NCBI GenBank assembly: GCA_012729455.1 | Contig: JAAYDC010000023.1 | Location: forward strand, 1 to 33,812 | Length of the DNA stretch: 33,812 bases | Reading direction: 5' to 3' | Source: Chloroflexota bacterium | Lineage (GTDB): Bacteria > Chloroflexota > Anaerolineae > UBA1429 | In this document: piece after piece, positions 4,522-32,842 of the stretch | How positions within the stretch are numbered: the stretch's first letter is position 1 | How the letters are laid out: each line of letters begins with the position of its first letter | Notes under the pieces: model-generated | Databases searched by the model: none | Told to the model about the DNA's origin: nothing | The model's input: the letters and a program-made list of their open reading frames with translations, nothing else | Made by a program: the position numbers and the translations under genes

Positions 4522-6024
4522 ATGAACAGCCGTGAACTGCTCGAGGCATTGCCGGCAGCCCAGGCCTTGCGCTGGGGCGATTTCGAGATCAGACAGGTTA
4601 CCAGCGATTCGCGCCGGGTAAAGCCTGGCGACCTCTTTGTGGCGATCCCGGGGGTAGCGGTGGATGGCCACTGCTACATCGGCGCAGCCCTGGCGGCTGG
4701 TGCGGTCGGCTGCATCGTCGAGCGCGAAACGCCCGAACTGGTCCAACAGCCTACACTGGTGGTGCCCAACGCCCGCCAGGCCTATGCCCATGCCCAGGCA
4801 GCCTACTATGGCAACCCCTCGCACGAGATGGTGGTGATCGGCGTAACTGGCACCGACGGCAAGACCACCACCACGCGCCTGTTGAGCGCCATCCTGCGCG
4901 CGGCTGGCAAAGCGGTTGGCAGCATCAATACCATCAGCGCCGAGATTGCCGGCAGCGATTACCCGCTCTCTTTTCACACCACCACACCGGATGCCGCTCA
5001 GGTGCAGGCCTATCTGCGCCAAATCCGTGATACCGGTGCCGAATACACTGTGCTGGAAACGACCTCGCACGGTCTGGCACAATACCGCGTGGCGGCATGC
5101 GAATACGACGTGGCCGTCGTCACCAACATCACCCACGAGCACCTGGATTTCCATGGCTCGTACGAGGCCTACCGCGATGCCAAGGCCATGCTTTTTACCG
5201 GGCTGCAGCACAGCGTGCGCAAGCCAGGGGTACCCAAGGTAGCGGTACTGAACCGCGACGACCCCTCCTTCCCGATTCTGGCGGCTTTTCCGGCTGACGT
5301 GCAGATGATCTATGGCCTGCAGCCAGGTGCTCCGATCACCGCCGGCAACATCACCGTCTCGCCGGAAGGGTTGCGCTTTACGCTGCGTTGGCAAAGCCGG
5401 CTTGAGGAGATTCAGTCACCGCTCCTAGGGCGTTACAACATCGAGAACATTTTGGCAGCCGCATCGGCGGCGCTTGGGCTGGGGATCGAGGTCAGCGCCA
5501 TCCAGCGGGGCATTGCCTCGGTAGAGACCATCGAGGGGCGCATGCAGCGCATCGACCAGGGGCAACCCTTCACGGCGATAATCGACTTTGCCCACACCCC
5601 CAACGCCCTCGAACGGGCCCTCAGCACGGTGCGCGAACTGACCAACGGACGCGTGATTGTGGTGTTTGGCAGCGCCGGCCTGCGTGACCGCGCCAAGCGT
5701 GCCTGGATGGGGCGGGTAGCCGGCCGCCTGGCCGATTACGCCGTCTTGACCGCCGAAGACCCGCGCACCGAACCGCTGGACGCCATCATCGAAGAGATCG
5801 CAAAGGGCTGCCGCGAATCGGGAATGCTAGAGGGCGAGCAGTTCGAACGCGTCGAGGACCGCGCCGCAGCCATCCAGGCCGCCCTGGAGCTGGCGCGCCC
5901 GGGCGACCTGGTATTGACAGCCGGCAAGGGGCATGAGCGTTCAATGTGCCTTGGCACTGTCGAATACCCCTGGAGCGAGCACCAGGCCATGCGCGATGGC
6001 CTGGCTAGCCTCGGATACCGCTAG
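4522..6024 (+). CDS. murE: Mur ligase, UDP-MurNAc-tripeptide synthetase type (MurE)
   Basis: MurE adds the third stem-peptide amino acid to UDP-MurNAc-L-Ala-D-Glu using ATP in the cytoplasm. The 500-residue length fits. Visible features: SDSRRVKPGDLFVAIPG (28-44), the P-loop VTGTDGKTTTTRL (108-120), TTPD (153-156), the THEHLDFHGS block (204-213) followed by the lysine expected to be carbamylated (Lys221), and the C-terminal LTAGKGHE. Two motifs are atypical. The amino-acid-recognition motif DNPR reads EDPR (412-415), and the block usually GDRDxxKRPxM reads GLRDRAKRAWM (386-396). The third residue (mDAP, Lys or Orn) cannot be assigned. AAGGAG precedes the ATG. The gene is not in a mur/fts cluster, and its stop shares CTAG with the convergent lipoprotein gene. 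Confidence 0.85.
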   Translation: MNSRELLEALPAAQALRWGDFEIRQVTSDSRRVKPGDLFVAIPGVAVDGHCYIGAALAAGAVGCIVERETPELVQQPTLVVPNARQAYAHAQAAYYGNPSHEMVVIGVTGTDGKTTTTRLLSAILRAAGKAVGSINTISAEIAGSDYPLSFHTTTPDAAQVQAYLRQIRDTGAEYTVLETTSHGLAQYRVAACEYDVAVVTNITHEHLDFHGSYEAYRDAKAMLFTGLQHSVRKPGVPKVAVLNRDDPSFPILAAFPADVQMIYGLQPGAPITAGNITVSPEGLRFTLRWQSRLEEIQSPLLGRYNIENILAAASAALGLGIEVSAIQRGIASVETIEGRMQRIDQGQPFTAIIDFAHTPNALERALSTVRELTNGRVIVVFGSAGLRDRAKRAWMGRVAGRLADYAVLTAEDPRTEPLDAIIEEIAKGCRESGMLEGEQFERVEDRAAAIQAALELARPGDLVLTAGKGHERSMCLGTVEYPWSEHQAMRDGLASLGYR

Positions 6025-6620
6025 TTGGTGCGGCCGCTGGCGTAAACCGCGCCCTGACGCAGCTCAACCCTGTCGACATACACAGACACACCATTGATGG
6101 GAATCGGGATGCCGCGGTTGGCATTGGCAGAATCCAGATAGCCGCGCACCAACGTCTTGGCCGCCAGGCGCGTCCAGCCCTCCAGAGACGGGTCGATCTC
6201 GTAGCCCAGCACCTGAATAAAGAGCTGGCCTTCTTTCGCCACCGGCAAGCCCCGCACCGTCACATCAAAGGTTTTATTGAGCTCTTGAGCCGAAACTCGA
6301 AGCTTGGCGATGATCTCCTGCTGTGTCACCTGGACGGATATATCCTGCACATAGCCATCCGACTTGGGGATGATCTTTTCGCACAGCAGGGCTTCCAGCT
6401 GCGCTTCGCTGTAGGTCGCCTCAAAGGTGTTATCATGCGGGTTAATAGTGATCACCGGTGCTGCCGTGGCAACCCGCGTGGGGGGGCGCACCAGCGTCGG
6501 CAGCAAAGTTGCAGTCGGCGTAACCAGACGTTCAGTCCAGCGGCTGAACCACGAACAAGCCGTCACGCTGCTCAGCAGCCACAAGACTACAGCAACTAGA
6601 ATCCACTTAGAGCGTCGCAT
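6021..6620 (-). CDS. Putative lipoprotein of unknown function
   Basis: The 199-residue product starts at ATG 6620 (MRRSKWILVAVVLWLLSS), a basic then hydrophobic signal peptide ending in VTAC, a lipobox. The mature N-terminal cysteine predicts a membrane-anchored extracytoplasmic protein. A threonine/proline-rich linker (about residues 35-55) precedes a soluble domain with alternating hydrophobic residues, probably beta-rich. I do not recognise the family. An upstream in-frame ATG at 6695 is rejected because AAGGAAGG lies just before 6620 and the signal peptide begins there. It is the last gene of the gatC-gatA-nucleotidyltransferase operon (37-base gap). Its TAG stop overlaps the murE stop. 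Confidence 0.78.
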   Translation of the reverse strand: MRRSKWILVAVVLWLLSSVTACSWFSRWTERLVTPTATLLPTLVRPPTRVATAAPVITINPHDNTFEATYSEAQLEALLCEKIIPKSDGYVQDISVQVTQQEIIAKLRVSAQELNKTFDVTVRGLPVAKEGQLFIQVLGYEIDPSLEGWTRLAAKTLVRGYLDSANANRGIPIPINGVSVYVDRVELRQGAVYASGRTN

Positions 6621-17949: not shown

Positions 17950-18768
17950 GTGGTATACGACTGGTTTGTCTCGCTCAGCCCTACCTGCCAAGCCCTCATC
18001 GGCACATTGTTTACCTATGGGATGACCGCTCTGGGTGCCGGCACGGTGTTTTTCTTTAAATCGGTTGATCGCCGTGTCCTGGATGGCATGCTGGGTTTTG
18101 CCGCGGGCGTGATGATCGCAGCCAGCTTTTGGTCGCTGTTGGCCCCCGCCATCGCCCTTTCCGAGGGCGGCCCGTTGCCCAAATGGCTGCCGGCAGTGGG
18201 CGGATTCCTGCTGGGCGGCGCCTTTCTGCGCCTAGTTGACCTCGTGCTGCCGCACATGCATCCTGGCCTGAGCGACGAAAACCAGCGCGAAGGTATCCCC
18301 ACCCAATGGCGCAAGTCCGTTCTGCTGGTGCTGGCGATCACCCTGCACAACTTTCCGGAAGGCCTGGCAGTTGGAGTAGCTTTTGGCGCCCTGGCAGCCG
18401 GCCTGCCCGAAGCCAGTCTAGCTGGAGCGATCGCCCTGGCAATGGGCATCGGCATTCAGAACCTGCCTGAGGGCGCAGCCGTGGCACTCCCCCTGCGGCG
18501 CGAGGGTATCAGCCGCAGGAAGGCCTTTTTCATGGGGCAGCTCTCCGGTATTGTCGAACCGATCGCCGGCGTGTTGGGGGCCTTTGCAGTGATAATCGCC
18601 AAGCCAATCCTGCCATGGGCATTGGCTTTTGCCGCCGGCGCAATGATCTTTGTGGTCGCCGAAGAGGTCATCCCCGAGTCGCAGTCAGAGGGCAACAGCC
18701 ACGTCGCTACATTTGGCGTGATGCTGGGCTTTGCGATTATGATGCTCTTGGATGTGGCGCTGGGCTAG
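17950..18768 (+). CDS. ZIP-family metal transporter (GufA-like), copy 1
   Basis: A 272-residue membrane protein with about eight hydrophobic helices. Metal-site motifs of ZIP transporters are visible: [11 protein letters not shown] (His133, Asn134, Glu137) in helix 4, [14 protein letters not shown] (Gln170, Asn171, Glu174) in helix 5, and VAEEVIPE (238-243) near the C-terminus. The LPHMHPG histidines (102, 104) lie in the central loop. It probably moves Zn(II) or another divalent metal into the cytoplasm. The start is GTG 17950 with GGGGGAAG immediately upstream. It is closely similar to the second ZIP gene at 27861-28661. Its stop is the CTAG shared with the convergent hydratase gene. Confidence 0.9.
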
Positions 18769-26060: not shown

Positions 26061-27861
26061 GCCCCTCCTGACCAGCCAACTCGGCGCCCCACCGCCCGAC
26101 TGGGCCCTCATGGAGCGCGCCCTGATTACCGAGATGAATACCAACGCGCTACGCTACCAGGAACACTATACCCGCCGCGATGGTAGTTTTATCTGGCGTG
26201 ACGAGTGGCCCGGCTTTGATGGCTCGGATGACGGGTACGAATCGTACCATAACTGGCCGCTCTTTTACGCCCTGGGCGGCGACAGCGAGCTGCACGAACG
26301 CTCGCGCTGGCTGTGGGAGACCGTCACGCGCCAGTTTACCGAATATGGGCAAGTCTACCGCGAGTTCGATGCCAACTATGACTGGATGCATCACGGCGAG
26401 AGCTCGATCTACCTTTACTATTTTGGCCTGGCTGACCCGACCCGCGCACGCGACCGAGCCCGCACGCTGCGCTTTGCGCGCATGTACATGGGTGAGGATC
26501 CCCTTGCGCCCAACTGGGACGCCGACAAGCGCATGATGCGCTCGCCCATCACCGGCAGCCGCGGGCCGCGCCTGGTCAACACTTGGGATGACTGGGCCAC
26601 CCACCGTGCCGTTCTGGCGCTGTATCCGCCGCCCTTTGACGATCTGCCGGGCGTGCCGGGCCCCCTGGCTAACTGGAACGACGACCAGGTCTATAGCACC
26701 ATCCTGCAGGCCCTCAACGCGCGCATGATGCGCTGCGATGTGCCGCTCAACCTCACCAGCACCAGCCTTATCACACATGCCTACCTGTATACCGGCGACG
26801 ATAAATACCGCACCTGGGTGCTGGATTACCTGCAGGTGTGGGCAGAACGCATTCAGGCCAACGGCGGCATCTGCCCCGATAACGTGGGGCCTAACGGCGT
26901 GGTAGGAGAGACTAACGACGGCAAGTGGTGGGGCGGTTACTATGGCTGGCGCTGGCCGCATGGCTTTATGACCATTATCCAGCCATTGACGATCGCGGCC
27001 ATGAACGCGGTGCTGCTCACCGGCGACCAGAGTTACCTGGATATCCCGCGCGGGCAGATCGACCGCATCATCGAGCTGGGGCATGTGGAGGGCGAGGCAC
27101 TGATGGTGCCCAACCGCCACCTCGATTCTGGCTGGGCCGATTTCCGCCAACTGCGTCCCGAGTATCCCCTGCAGATCTGGTTCATGTCGCAGGATGAACG
27201 CGACCGTGCACGCCTGGAGCGCTTCCCCGAGCGCCTCACCGAATGGAGCAAGGTGGCGCCCGGCCGCGGCAAGGGCGATGATATCCACATCGCGCCCTAC
27301 TATCGCTTCCTGGAGGGTGCTAACCCGGGCTATCCGCAGGCGCTGCTGGATGCCCAGTGGAACGAGGTGGCGCGCCGCATGGCACGCATGGCCAGCGACG
27401 ACAGCGACCCCGAGTCCTGGGACGTGCATCATTGGCAGGATATCAACCCAGTACACACCGAGGCACTGCTGCAGCTTACCTGCGGAGGTCCGCAGATCAT
27501 CTACCACGGCGGGCTGCTTCATGTGCGTTTGCGTTATTACGACGCTATCGCCGCTCGCCCAGGCCTGCCGCCCGATGTGGGCGCGTTGGTCACCGGACTG
27601 GATGGCTCAAGCATCCGCGTGCGCATCGCCAACATCAGCACGCTGGAGCCGCGCGAGCTGTTAATCCAGGCCGGAGCCTTTGGCGAGCATCGCTTCACCA
27701 GCGTGCAGGATCTGGCAGCCGGCGAATCCGCCCCGCAGGATGCGGGCAAGTATGTGCGTGTGCGCCTGGCGCCCGGCGGGCAAGTTGAGCTGCAGCTGAA
27801 CATGCAGCGCTATGTCAACAAGCCCTCCTACGAACAGCCCGTTTTCGGCAGCCGCGCCTGA
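26053..27861 (+). CDS. Large protein of unknown family, possibly an alpha/alpha-barrel carbohydrate-active enzyme
   Basis: 602 residues, translated from ATG 26053 with AAGGAG upstream; a longer frame from 26008 lies over the hydrolase gene and is rejected. The body (about 1-500) is helix-rich with many Trp, Tyr, His and Asp residues and repeated helix-loop patterns. Examples are YHNWPLFYALGGDSELHERS, YDWMHHGESSIYLYYFGLAD and GGYYGWRWPHGFMTI, resembling the (alpha/alpha) barrels of glycoside hydrolases, lyases and related enzymes. The C-terminal ~90 residues (LLHVRLRYYDAIA onward) look like a beta domain. No signal peptide is seen. I do not recognise the family; the catalytic call is inference from composition and layout. 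It sits between the alpha/beta hydrolase (8-base overlap) and ZIP transporter 2 (TGATG overlap). Confidence 0.72.
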   Translation: MPEPLLTSQLGAPPPDWALMERALITEMNTNALRYQEHYTRRDGSFIWRDEWPGFDGSDDGYESYHNWPLFYALGGDSELHERSRWLWETVTRQFTEYGQVYREFDANYDWMHHGESSIYLYYFGLADPTRARDRARTLRFARMYMGEDPLAPNWDADKRMMRSPITGSRGPRLVNTWDDWATHRAVLALYPPPFDDLPGVPGPLANWNDDQVYSTILQALNARMMRCDVPLNLTSTSLITHAYLYTGDDKYRTWVLDYLQVWAERIQANGGICPDNVGPNGVVGETNDGKWWGGYYGWRWPHGFMTIIQPLTIAAMNAVLLTGDQSYLDIPRGQIDRIIELGHVEGEALMVPNRHLDSGWADFRQLRPEYPLQIWFMSQDERDRARLERFPERLTEWSKVAPGRGKGDDIHIAPYYRFLEGANPGYPQALLDAQWNEVARRMARMASDDSDPESWDVHHWQDINPVHTEALLQLTCGGPQIIYHGGLLHVRLRYYDAIAARPGLPPDVGALVTGLDGSSIRVRIANISTLEPRELLIQAGAFGEHRFTSVQDLAAGESAPQDAGKYVRVRLAPGGQVELQLNMQRYVNKPSYEQPVFGSRA

Positions 27862-28661
27862 TGCTGGAGAGTTTTGCTGCGCTGGCAGTCCCTCTGCAGG
27901 CACTCCTGGCAGGCCTCTTTACGGCTGCCATGACGGCGATCGGTTCGGCGCCCGTGTTTTTCACCCGGCAGGTTCACCCGCGCCTGATGGCGGTGATGCT
28001 GGGGAGTGCTGCTGGCATCATGTTGGCTGCCAGCTACTGGTCGTTGTTGGCGCCGGCCATCCGCATCACGGGCGGCAACTGGATGCAGCCGGCAATCGGG
28101 TTTCTGCTGGGCGGCGGTGTGCTGCTGCTGATCGATGCCATCCTGCCGCACATCCACCCGGCTCTGCGCGATTGCCCTTCCGAGGGCGTACCCACCAACT
28201 GGCGCCGCAGTGTCCTTCTGGTGCTGGCGGTGATGCTGCACAACATCCCGGAAGGGCTTACCATCGGAGTCGCCTTTGGAGCAGCAGCGTCCGGTATCCC
28301 CGAGGCATCGCTGACCGGCGCACTGGTGCTGGCGTTGGGCATCGGCCTGCAGAACCTGCCAGAAGGACTGGCGGTAGCCATGCCGCTGCGCTGCGAGGGC
28401 CTGAGCCCGCTCAAATCGTTTCTGCTGGGGATCCTTTCAGGGATTGTCGAACCGTTGGCCGCCTTGGCAGGCGCTCTGCTATCGCTTTCGATGGACAGCG
28501 CTATGCCCTATGCGCTCTCGTTCGCGGCCGGGGCGATGATCTATGTGGTCTTTGAGGAGCTTATCCCCGAGGCTGTTGCGGGCTCGGACGGCCACTATGC
28601 CACCATCAGCTCGATGGTGGGCTTTACTCTGATGATGGTGCTGGAGGTAGCCCTGGGCTAG
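27861..28661 (+). CDS. ZIP-family metal transporter (GufA-like), copy 2
   Basis: A 266-residue membrane protein with ZIP metal motifs LHNIPEGLTIGVAFG (His127, Asn128, Glu131), LQNLPEGLAVAMPLR (Gln164, Asn165, Glu168) and VFEELIPE (Glu232, Glu233, Glu237). It has a similar helix pattern to the 17950-18768 gene and the shared LPHxHP loop. Sequence identity over the core looks about half or more by eye. It starts at ATG 27861, overlapping the previous stop as TGATG, so it is translated with the hydrolase/602-residue pair. Metal specificity is unknown. The 3' end overlaps the convergent MFS gene by 38 bases. Confidence 0.9.
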   Translation: MLESFAALAVPLQALLAGLFTAAMTAIGSAPVFFTRQVHPRLMAVMLGSAAGIMLAASYWSLLAPAIRITGGNWMQPAIGFLLGGGVLLLIDAILPHIHPALRDCPSEGVPTNWRRSVLLVLAVMLHNIPEGLTIGVAFGAAASGIPEASLTGALVLALGIGLQNLPEGLAVAMPLRCEGLSPLKSFLLGILSGIVEPLAALAGALLSLSMDSAMPYALSFAAGAMIYVVFEELIPEAVAGSDGHYATISSMVGFTLMMVLEVALG

Positions 28662-30032: not shown

Positions 30033-30497
30033 ATGATCCCTGCAGCAGAAAACCTGAATGGCTGGTGGCACGCTTACTTGGATGCCTCAAACCCCTGGAA
30101 GCCCGAGCAAGACGCGTTATCCAGCCCACTGCCGCACCCGACGGGCGGTTGGGAAGCGCTCGAGACCCGCAAACGCTCGCTGAGCGTGCCCGGGATATGG
30201 CGCGACCACATCGCCGGCTACGTAGGGATTATCTGGTATGAACGACCACTGTGGTTGGAAGCTGACTGGAAAGGCGTGGAAGGAGTGCTGGAGATCGCCC
30301 GGTTTTGCGAATGGCTGCAGGTATTCCTGAATGGCAAGCCTGTCGGGCAGAGTGTCCGGGCACACCAGGGGTTGGCGCTCGCGCTGGGAGTGCTGCGCCC
30401 AGAATGCCGTTACAGCCTGGGAGTGTGCTTATGGGCGCCCGACGATCGCGGCGGTATCGCCTCCGACGTGATCCTGCGGCCAGCCGCAAACGATTGA
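30033..30497 (+). CDS. Stand-alone GH2-type sugar-binding (jelly-roll) domain protein
   Basis: A 154-residue protein. The central stretch SVPGIWRDHIAGYVGIIWYE, then EIARFCEWLQVFLNGKPVG and a segment ending in a short acidic loop, matches the N-terminal galactose-binding-like jelly-roll of beta-galactosidases and beta-glucuronidases (VPxxW...GxxWYxR...VxLNGxxVG). It stops there: no immunoglobulin-like or TIM-barrel catalytic domain follows, so it probably binds rather than cuts sugar. No signal peptide. Start ATG 30033 is preferred over 30018 because GAGGTG lies 8 bases upstream. It is just upstream of the PadR-GH57 fusion and in the same orientation. Domain assignment is by motif reading. Confidence 0.62.
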   Translation: MIPAAENLNGWWHAYLDASNPWKPEQDALSSPLPHPTGGWEALETRKRSLSVPGIWRDHIAGYVGIIWYERPLWLEADWKGVEGVLEIARFCEWLQVFLNGKPVGQSVRAHQGLALALGVLRPECRYSLGVCLWAPDDRGGIASDVILRPAAND

Positions 30498-30521
30498 CAG
30501 AAGGCCAGAGCAGCTTAGAAT
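30494..30521 (+). promoter_or_regulatory. Sigma70-type promoter for the PadR-GH57 fusion
   Basis: Consensus TTGACA (30494-30499) overlaps the previous stop codon; TAGAAT (30516-30521) follows after 16 bases. The predicted start is near 30528, with GAGGAGG (30537-30543) before ATG 30548. The fusion can therefore be transcribed on its own. Confidence 0.68.
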
Positions 30522-30547
30522 GAGACAAGGTTGCCTGAGGAGGCTGA

Positions 30548-32842
30548 ATGAACGAAATCCGTCTAGCTTTACTGGGATTGCTGCATCAGAGCAGCCTGGA
30601 CGCCTTTCAAATTCGACGCCTTGAAAGCGAACAGCAGGGCCTGTGGGCCGAGGTGCCGCTCTCGAGCATCTATCACGAGCTGGCCCGCCTGATCGACGAA
30701 GGCCTGGTCGAGCGCGAAGTGGTCGCACCCGCCACCCCTGAGCAGGCGCCCAGCAAACGCTACCGCCTGACGGCCGCCGGCAGCCAGGCTCTGCGCAGCC
30801 TGCTCTCCCAGGCCTGGTCAGAAGCGGGCTCTTCCAGTGCCGTGCAAGACCTCACGTTGCTCAACCCCGAGTTGATCTCGGCAGATGGCCTGGTCAGCGC
30901 CCTCACCAAACGCATCGATAACCTCGAGCGCGAGCTGGAGCGCGCCGATAACCGCTGCAAGGAACTGTCCGAATCAGATGACAACTGGCCGCTGGTCCGC
31001 ACCGTGCACGACCGCCTGCGTGAGCGCCAAACCAGCGAGCTGGCCTGGGTACGCTCCCTGCTGGAACAGATAAAGGCCGGCCACTGGCGCATGCGCCCCC
31101 GCCCGGATAGCAGCGGGCGACTGAACCTGGCACAGCGCATTGCCGACAAGCGCGTGGGGGCCTTTACCTTTGTGCTGCATTCGCATCTGCCTTATTGCCG
31201 CATGTCGGGGCGCTGGCCGCACGGCGAGGAATGGCTGCACGAAGCCCTGGCCGAGACCTATGTCCCGCTGCTCGAGACGCTCTTTGATATGGCCGAAGAC
31301 CAGGTGCCCTTCCAGCTGACCATCGGCCTGACACCGGTGCTCACCGAACAGCTTGCCGATATGGACGTGCGCGAGCACTTTATAATCTACCTCGAGGAAA
31401 AGATCGACGCCGCTTCGGCCGATATCGAGCGTTTTGAAGCATCCGGCGAAGAGCAGTTAAAGACCCTGGCGATTTTCTACCACGACTATTACACGCACGT
31501 GGGCAATGTCTACAACGAGCGCCTGGGCGGCGATGTGATCGGCGCCTTTAAGAGGTTACAAGATGCCGGGTTGATCGAGCTGATCACCTCGGCCGCCACG
31601 CACGGCTACCTGCCGCTCCTGGTGCGCGACTCGTCGATCTATGGGCAGATTCAGGCTGGCATCGAGAGCTACCGGCGCCACTTTGGACGCTCACCGCGTA
31701 CCATTTGGCTGCCCGAATGTGCCTACCGCCCGGCCTACCGCGATGAAAACGGTTTGATCCGCCCCGGGCTGGAAGAGTTCCTGGCGGGCGCGGGCCTGAG
31801 CGCCTTCCTGGTCGAGACGCACGCCATCGAGGGCGGCCAGCCGGTGGGCAAGGCCGCCGACGAGGTCAGCATCGGCCCTTACGGCGCCGTCATGCGCGAC
31901 TATTTGGTCGCGCCGCGCAAGGACTTTGAGGGCGGCGGCACCACCTATCGGGCCTACTATACCGCCAGCCAGAACGGGTTGACGGATCCGCCCGTCGCCG
32001 TGATCGGGCGCAACAACCGCACTGGCCAACAGGTCTGGTCGGCCCAGTTCGGTTATCCTGGCGACGGCCAGTACCGAGAGTTCCACCGCAAAGACTCCGA
32101 GTCGGGCCTGCAGTATTGGCGCATCACCGGCTCGCAGACCGACCTGGGCAACAAGGAGATCTACCAGCCCTGGGAGGCCGACCAGCGCATCGACGAGCAT
32201 GCCTGGCACTATGCCGGGCTGGTGCACGACCTGCTGCTTGACTACGCCAACCACACTGGCGACTATGGGCTGATCAGTTCAAACTATGATACCGAGCTGT
32301 TTGGGCACTGGTGGTTCGAAGGGGTGCGCTGGCTGGGCAAGGTGCTGCGCATTCTGGCAGCCAGTGAGCAGGTTGAGCTCACCACCATCAGCAAGTTTGT
32401 GACGGTACGTGAACCCACTCAGATGCTGGCTGTGCCGGAAAGCTCGTGGGGCAGCGGCGGATATCACTGGACATGGGATAACGACGACACCAGGTGGATG
32501 TGGGCGCCGATCCATGCCGCCGAAAAACGCATGGAAGCGCTGGTGGAACGCTTCCCGAACGCGGAAGGCGAGGTACTACGAGCCCTCAACCAAGCCGCTC
32601 GCGAGCTGTTGCTGCTGCAATCCAGCGACTGGCCTTTTTTGGTGACCACCAGCCAGGCGCATGCCTATGCTATCAAGCGCTTTAACGGCCATGTCGAGCG
32701 CTTTAACCAGCTGGCCGATCTGCTGCAAGGGGGAGCCTATTCCGAGGCGGGTCATGTGGCCGACACCCTTTACGAACAGGACAAGGTCTTTAGCACCATC
32801 GACTACCGCTGGTTCGCCGAGCGTCAGGGCAAAGCGAAATAA
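30548..32842 (+). CDS. PadR-type regulator fused to a GH57 glucan-branching-type enzyme
   Basis: A 764-residue protein with two complete modules. Residues about 1-85 form a PadR winged helix (LALLGLLHQSSLDAFQIRR, SIYHELARLIDEGLVERE, SKRYRLTAAGSQAL). About 105-180 form the helical dimerisation tail of long PadR proteins (ISADGLVSALTKRIDNLERE, SELAWVRSLLEQIKAG). A short linker leads to a GH57 catalytic domain from about 203: FTFVLHSHLPYCR (His211, His213), WLPECAYRPAY with the presumed nucleophile Glu390, and SSNYDTELFGHWWFEG with the presumed acid Asp581. A DUF1957-type C-terminal domain (about 640-745) includes RELLLLQSSDWPFLVT. GH57 members of this layout are 1,4-alpha-glucan branching enzymes. 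The reading frame is unbroken and no good internal start lies at the junction. The enzyme half may carry glucan synthesis, and the regulator half may bind DNA; both are inferred. Confidence 0.88.
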   Translation: MNEIRLALLGLLHQSSLDAFQIRRLESEQQGLWAEVPLSSIYHELARLIDEGLVEREVVAPATPEQAPSKRYRLTAAGSQALRSLLSQAWSEAGSSSAVQDLTLLNPELISADGLVSALTKRIDNLERELERADNRCKELSESDDNWPLVRTVHDRLRERQTSELAWVRSLLEQIKAGHWRMRPRPDSSGRLNLAQRIADKRVGAFTFVLHSHLPYCRMSGRWPHGEEWLHEALAETYVPLLETLFDMAEDQVPFQLTIGLTPVLTEQLADMDVREHFIIYLEEKIDAASADIERFEASGEEQLKTLAIFYHDYYTHVGNVYNERLGGDVIGAFKRLQDAGLIELITSAATHGYLPLLVRDSSIYGQIQAGIESYRRHFGRSPRTIWLPECAYRPAYRDENGLIRPGLEEFLAGAGLSAFLVETHAIEGGQPVGKAADEVSIGPYGAVMRDYLVAPRKDFEGGGTTYRAYYTASQNGLTDPPVAVIGRNNRTGQQVWSAQFGYPGDGQYREFHRKDSESGLQYWRITGSQTDLGNKEIYQPWEADQRIDEHAWHYAGLVHDLLLDYANHTGDYGLISSNYDTELFGHWWFEGVRWLGKVLRILAASEQVELTTISKFVTVREPTQMLAVPESSWGSGGYHWTWDNDDTRWMWAPIHAAEKRMEALVERFPNAEGEVLRALNQAARELLLLQSSDWPFLVTTSQAHAYAIKRFNGHVERFNQLADLLQGGAYSEAGHVADTLYEQDKVFSTIDYRWFAERQGKAK

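Follow-up and report, generated by a model that had tools for sequence, protein, structure and literature searches.

A PadR-type regulator module fused to a GH57 branching enzyme in one family of Chloroflexota

The window analysed here, a 33,812-nucleotide stretch of the genome that we labelled G000, carries on the plus strand an open frame whose 764 codons run from an ATG at position 30548 to a stop ending at position 32842 (Table 1). The encoded protein joins a PadR subfamily-1 module (residues ~1 to 178), a 25-residue linker, and a GH57 branching enzyme (residues 204 to 756). A first-pass annotation made from the sequence alone had described an uninterrupted PadR-GH57 frame with a TTGACA-type promoter and a strong ribosome-binding site. 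The frame is indeed unbroken over all its codons, and the same architecture recurs in six further genera. Both expression signals were found as well: the promoter-like site agrees with the consensus at 11 of 12 positions, where 1.7 promoter-like sites are expected per 3.8 kb, and AGGAGG stands 4 nt from the ATG. Elsewhere in these 34 kb we noted two similar ZIP-type metal transporter genes (17950 to 18768 and 27861 to 28661). Toward the contig end (33000 to 33812) GC drops from ~0.60-0.67 to 0.39-0.44, and this region, which holds an ABC-2 permease gene on the minus strand, is perhaps recently acquired DNA.

Table 1. Features of the fused gene in the window and of related loci in other genomes
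Feature	Location	Strand	Remark
Upstream gene, 159 aa	30018..30497	+	No Pfam match; by eye like a GH2 sugar-binding fragment
Promoter-like TTGACA-16 nt-TAGAAT	30494..30521	+	Consensus match only; overlaps end of upstream gene
Ribosome-binding site AGGAGG	30538..30543	+	4 nt 5' of ATG
Fused gene, 764 codons plus stop	30548..32842	+	
PadR winged helix, residues 1-88	30548..30811	+	
Codons 18-20, Asp-Ala-Phe replacing Tyr/His-Gly-Tyr	30599..30607	+	DNA-backbone contact in PadR structures
Codon 42, helix-3 (recognition) Tyr	30671..30673	+	Kept in window
PadR subfamily-1 C-terminal helices, residues 97-178	30836..31081	+	Conserved Glu164 and Trp167
Variable linker, residues 179-203	31082..31156	+	Low predicted confidence at 183-198
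GH57 catalytic domain, residues 204-629	31157..32434	+	
Glu390 (nucleophile) and Cys391	31715..31720	+	Cys391: branching-enzyme marker, region CSR-3
Tyr445, catalytic loop	31880..31882	+	Aligns with Tyr236/Tyr233 of T. thermophilus/T. kodakarensis branching enzymes
Asp581, acid/base	32288..32290	+	
Branching-enzyme C-terminal domain PF09210, residues 655-756	32510..32815	+	Pfam
GntR with sugar-binding-protein domain, after GH57	L049:10255-11334		
GntR with sugar-binding-protein domain, after GH57	L050:2908-4002		
GntR with sugar-binding-protein domain, after GH57	L051:10538-11725		
GntR with sugar-binding-protein domain, after GH57	L052:5116-6282		
GntR with sugar-binding-protein domain, after GH57	L053, about 5400-6468		
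GntR with sugar-binding-protein domain, after GH57	L065:9238-10305		
GntR with sugar-binding-protein domain, after GH57	L087:9761-10867		
AT-rich inverted repeat, free-standing PadR relative	L128:3046-3078		
AT-rich inverted repeat, free-standing PadR relative	L129:1770-1803		
AT-rich inverted repeat, free-standing PadR relative	L131, upstream of 3775		
PadR-DUF4388 (PATAN-like), ~490-540 aa	L132:2432-3925		Frequent in class; recognition motifs intact
PadR-DUF4388 (PATAN-like)	L133:1757-3343		One chain
PadR-DUF4388 (PATAN-like)	L134, L135, L186, L189-L191		One chain
PadR-GyrI-like small-molecule-binding domain, ~385 aa	L136:2459-3604		
PadR-GyrI-like small-molecule-binding domain, ~385 aa	L137:1892-3055		

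The structure prediction that the first-pass annotation had proposed places a winged helix, the long C-terminal helices of PadR, and a GH57 fold in one chain (AlphaFold2, mean pLDDT 83), with residues 183 to 198, between the PadR helices and the GH57 fold, poorly defined. The enzyme half was recognized by Pfam as GH57 (PF03065, residues 207 to 629, E 2e-32) followed by PF09210, formerly DUF1957 and now BE_C (residues 655 to 756, E 9e-31), and NCBIfam groups residues 204 to 753 with GH57 1,4-alpha-glucan branching proteins (E 9e-164). The NCBIfam equivalog cut-off, which was set for Thermococcales at 1000 bits while the models cover other lineages, was missed at 546 bits. A Foldseek search with the whole chain matched GH57 branching enzymes with E values down to 1.5e-40. 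Glu390 and Asp581, already read from the sequence as the catalytic pair of a GH57 domain with a DUF1957 tail, show no variation in 37 homologues, and both domain matches lie over the cut-off.

Branching enzymes of this family are marked by a cysteine in CSR-3 and a long loop with a tyrosine at its tip (PMC6616209); the flexible loop sets them apart from AmyC-like enzymes. Accordingly placed residues are found in the window protein: Cys391 and Tyr445 are invariant or nearly so among the 37 homologues, and Tyr445 sits in a long loop with low pLDDT at 430 to 446. All four residues (E390, C391, Y445, and D581) are retained in each of the seven fused proteins described below. T. kodakarensis TK1436, T. 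thermophilus TT1467, and P. horikoshii PH1386 fold like residues 204 to 756 (Foldseek E ~1e-39 to 1e-40) and have in common with the window protein the catalytic Glu/Asp, the CSR-3 cysteine, the long tyrosine loop, and BE_C; unlike it, they are without an N-terminal PadR module, and TK1436 has been reported to form a tetramer on its own (PMC6616209). The enzyme half thus looks intact, and to judge from its residues it would have branching activity. Among the long CBM48-domain proteins of the window genome we found no GH13 branching enzyme, the only other such protein being the debranching enzyme GlgX, by equivalog match; the fused protein is therefore probably the only branching enzyme there. 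A 397-aa GlgA-like glycosyltransferase is also present.

The N-terminal half scored close to the limit of the PadR model (PF03551, residues 9 to 83, E 1.2e-6, 28.9 bits against a cut-off of 27). This is the lowest score among the seven fused proteins, of which G006 reached 29.9, G004 34.2, and the others 45 to 58 bits, compared to 58 to 66 bits for free-standing relatives. A profile built from the seven fused N-terminal halves nevertheless spans B. subtilis PadR over its full length (residues 1 to 176 of the window protein, E 1.6e-17). For the N-terminal half, Foldseek returned PadR structures (E 7e-7), among them the operator complex 5x11. TM-scores were 0.60 to 0.70 against 8jxk and low against 5x11, because the angle between the two sub-domains differs. 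PadR subfamily 1 comprises proteins of ~180 aa with a winged helix and a multi-helix C-terminal domain of 80 to 90 residues (PMC3506622). The window module agrees with this definition in length and fold, as do the free-standing B. subtilis PadR (5x11), M. tuberculosis Rv0047c (8jxk), and V. cholerae AphA (1yg2), but it is tied to an enzyme instead of free-standing and, unlike these three, is without the Gly-Tyr DNA-contact motif. The earlier description of the PadR half as complete was therefore borne out for length and fold and not for the DNA-contact signature, where Ala19-Phe20 stand for Gly-Tyr.

We then looked at how widely the fusion occurs. It is present in 7 of 15 genomes examined from one uncultured Chloroflexota family, in seven species of seven genera, and the fused proteins are 52 to 61% identical over their whole length. 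Outside this family, no PadR-GH57 fusion was found either in the class (396 genomes) or in the phylum (~300 genomes). A scan of ~85,000 named genomes, which depends on the peptide WPHGEEW or GAFTFVLH and could miss divergent fusions elsewhere, returned six full-length fusions, all in Chloroflexota/Anaerolineae metagenome-assembled genomes (the window's own genome may be absent from the set); the next matches were unfused GH57 genes. All the genomes being metagenome-assembled, an assembly or sequencing artefact had to be considered, and it is ruled out by the same junction in seven independently assembled genera. An apparent eighth fusion with a frame break, in G007, was rejected, as this gene begins directly before GH57. 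The unfused GH57 gene of G007 (L054:3573-5000 onward) is itself split over two frames, with the change near residue 590. Long frames upstream of GH57 in G042 and G102 were not PadR by profile search and were taken as spurious frames of GC-rich DNA.

In a tree of the enzyme domains, a branch with full support sets the whole family apart, and the seven fused proteins form one group (support 93/86) that also contains the unfused G007, a partial query whose placement is weakly supported. By parsimony, a GH57 branching enzyme gained its PadR module once, in an ancestor of about half the family, and one probable loss followed in G007. No PadR gene adjoins GH57 in the flanks of 73 unfused loci, nor did any homologue carry the two halves as adjacent genes, an arrangement that, like absence of the architecture from all other genomes, would have spoken against a genuine fusion. 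None of the 15 family genomes holds another subfamily-1 PadR of similar type at good score; the nearest free-standing relatives of the PadR half belong to other families of the class.

Directly 3' of GH57, five fused loci and the unfused loci of G003 and G010 carry a gene for a GntR-type regulator that also has a sugar-binding-protein domain. Since this neighbour is common to fused and unfused loci, the PadR module was placed before an existing GH57-GntR pair, and the GntR protein is a candidate for regulating the branching enzyme. This gene is absent from the window and from G001, the fused relative closest to it, which share a similar short gene directly upstream of the fusion.

PadR proteins contact DNA through a Y-G-Y-E motif in helix 2 (Gly25 and Tyr26), Tyr46 in helix 3, and basic residues of the wing (PMC3506622). 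By motif, Gly25/Tyr26 and Tyr46 of bcPadR are the equivalents of columns 19/20 and 42 in window numbering. The seven fused N-terminal halves were aligned with PadR modules from the class that are not joined to GH57; in all 31 of these, Gly19, Tyr20, and Tyr42 are invariant. In the window protein, columns 18 to 20 read Asp18-Ala19-Phe20, so that the Y/H-G-Y motif present in the six other fused proteins is absent. The recognition-helix Tyr42 is kept in the window and replaced by Leu in G006 and Trp in G004. Departures at columns 19, 20, or 42 thus occur in 3 of 7 fused proteins and in none of the 31 others (Fisher p 0.004), through two independent events, in a test to which only seven fused sequences lend little power. 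Fourteen columns are conserved in at least 29 of the 31. Non-conservative departures of the fused set fall on columns 18, 19, and 42, which belong to the DNA-contact motifs, and on column 6, while columns 9, 45, 52, 72, 75, 78, 119, 164, and 167 are unchanged. The dimer-helix signatures Glu164 and Trp167 and the core signatures are retained in all seven. The winged helix is net positive in one fused protein; net charge proved uninformative as a test of DNA binding, free-standing PadRs scattering equally widely. From the contact residues we infer that DNA binding by the window protein may be weakened or lost. Against this count the retention of Tyr42 and the merely conservative change of Tyr20 to Phe.

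We also searched for operators. Neither an inverted repeat nor a PadR-type ATGT/ACAT operator was found in the 200 bp preceding the window gene, and none of the fused genes has ATGT/ACAT in its upstream region. Imperfect inverted repeats in these regions are mostly at chance level (1.1 to 2.1 expected per region after shuffling), and those regions in G000, G002, and G011 show no shared or inverted repeat beyond chance. In G001, the upstream region contains CATTACAAGGTTGTAATG, with a perfect 8+2+8 palindrome, CATTACAA-GG-TTGTAATG, between promoter and start codon. Its core occurs exactly only once in the G001 genome, where one other site has 1 mismatch, and a regulon search found no site in the other six fused genomes. 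Immediately 5' of the start codon, an AT-rich inverted repeat around AGAATATT is common to three of the free-standing PadR relatives and is likely their operator.

These data bear on whether the protein is a trigger enzyme, in which the PadR half would bind an operator, probably in its own promoter, and glucan held by the GH57 half would alter that binding, so that the supply of branching enzyme would follow the glycogen state. PadR repressors are often autoregulatory, and all DNA-contact signatures are kept in four of the seven fused proteins, which would be expected were DNA binding still of importance in them. The position of the G001 palindrome just before the start would suit autoregulation, and the GntR/sugar-binding regulator after the fused gene in five relatives fits as well. 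However, contact residues differ in the window protein and have been lost from G006 and G004, a single palindrome in seven promoters exceeds chance only weakly, three of the other upstream regions yielded nothing, and a variable linker speaks against rigid allosteric coupling. We regard this explanation as possible but rather doubtful. The coupling of glucan occupancy to transcription suggested in the first-pass annotation thus gained no positive support, the linker being variable and the window gene lacking an inverted repeat in its upstream region; its alternative, that the PadR half dimerizes or localizes the enzyme, fits better. An unlikely compromise is that the branching enzyme doubles as its own transcription factor in those lineages whose motifs are intact, the PadR half being a dimerizer elsewhere in the clade: in G001, the PadR half would bind the promoter palindrome, and the glucan loading of GH57 would set repression.

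The linker is conserved neither in sequence nor in length (21 to 38 aa in the seven fused proteins). The PadR half evolves 2 to 5 times faster than the enzyme half in non-synonymous change and is still under constraint, with dN ~0.4 to 0.7 against a saturated dS, for which reason dN/dS was rejected as an absolute measure and relative dN alone was used. The fast evolution and the probable loss in G007 would suit a functionless fusion, arisen by chance read-through and carried along by the enzyme. Such drift is very improbable: in all seven genera the frame is open over its whole length, dN stays far under dS, and the core and dimer signatures are invariant. The constraint on the winged-helix core, maintained while contact residues vary, would also be compatible with a PadR half that binds DNA (specifically or non-specifically) or a partner and so positions the enzyme, for example on the nucleoid or on another protein, without controlling transcription; with no partner or target found and a net positive winged helix in only one of the seven proteins, we consider this quite improbable.

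The explanation we favour, with a probability of roughly 55%, is that the PadR half now serves, by way of a flexible linker, to bring two enzyme domains together and that DNA binding has been weakened or lost in the window protein. The module would act mainly in dimerization, with the linker tethering the two enzyme domains; that the fused protein forms a dimer is inferred from what is known of the family. DNA binding may have been an earlier property of the PadR half. Fused relatives whose motifs are intact may have kept it, and in them a role as enzyme-regulator is possible; in the window species, as in the pair G006 and G004, DNA binding would be eroding or gone, an uneven erosion across the fused set. 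The full set of contact signatures in four fused proteins counts against a module that only dimerizes, and the G001 palindrome likewise counts against the pairing explanation.

Within the class, fusion of PadR to another domain is in itself nothing unusual. PadR-DUF4388 proteins, chains of ~490-540 aa that are frequent there, and PadR-GyrI-like proteins place another domain after a subfamily-1 module, as in the window, but that domain is no glycoside hydrolase and, unlike in the window, all DNA-contact residues are kept; the GyrI-like fusion is plausibly a one-chain sensor-regulator. BirA, PutA, and NadR also combine an enzyme with a DNA-binding-type fold in one chain. DNA binding is proven for them, whereas it is doubtful in three of the seven fused PadR proteins. 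Both halves of the window protein belong to described families, and their combination appears undescribed, as the first-pass annotation had supposed: a literature search found no publication on a PadR-GH57 fusion or on PadR attached to a glycoside hydrolase, and the available portion of a 2024 review of prokaryotic glucan enzymes mentions neither PadR nor Chloroflexi.

With fused and unfused orthologues in one family, and intact and damaged contact motifs in one clade, the fused set offers a natural experiment in which an enzyme takes in a DNA-binding module and keeps or strips its first role. If our reading is true, this would be the first branching enzyme in which a regulator domain determines the quaternary structure or the supply.
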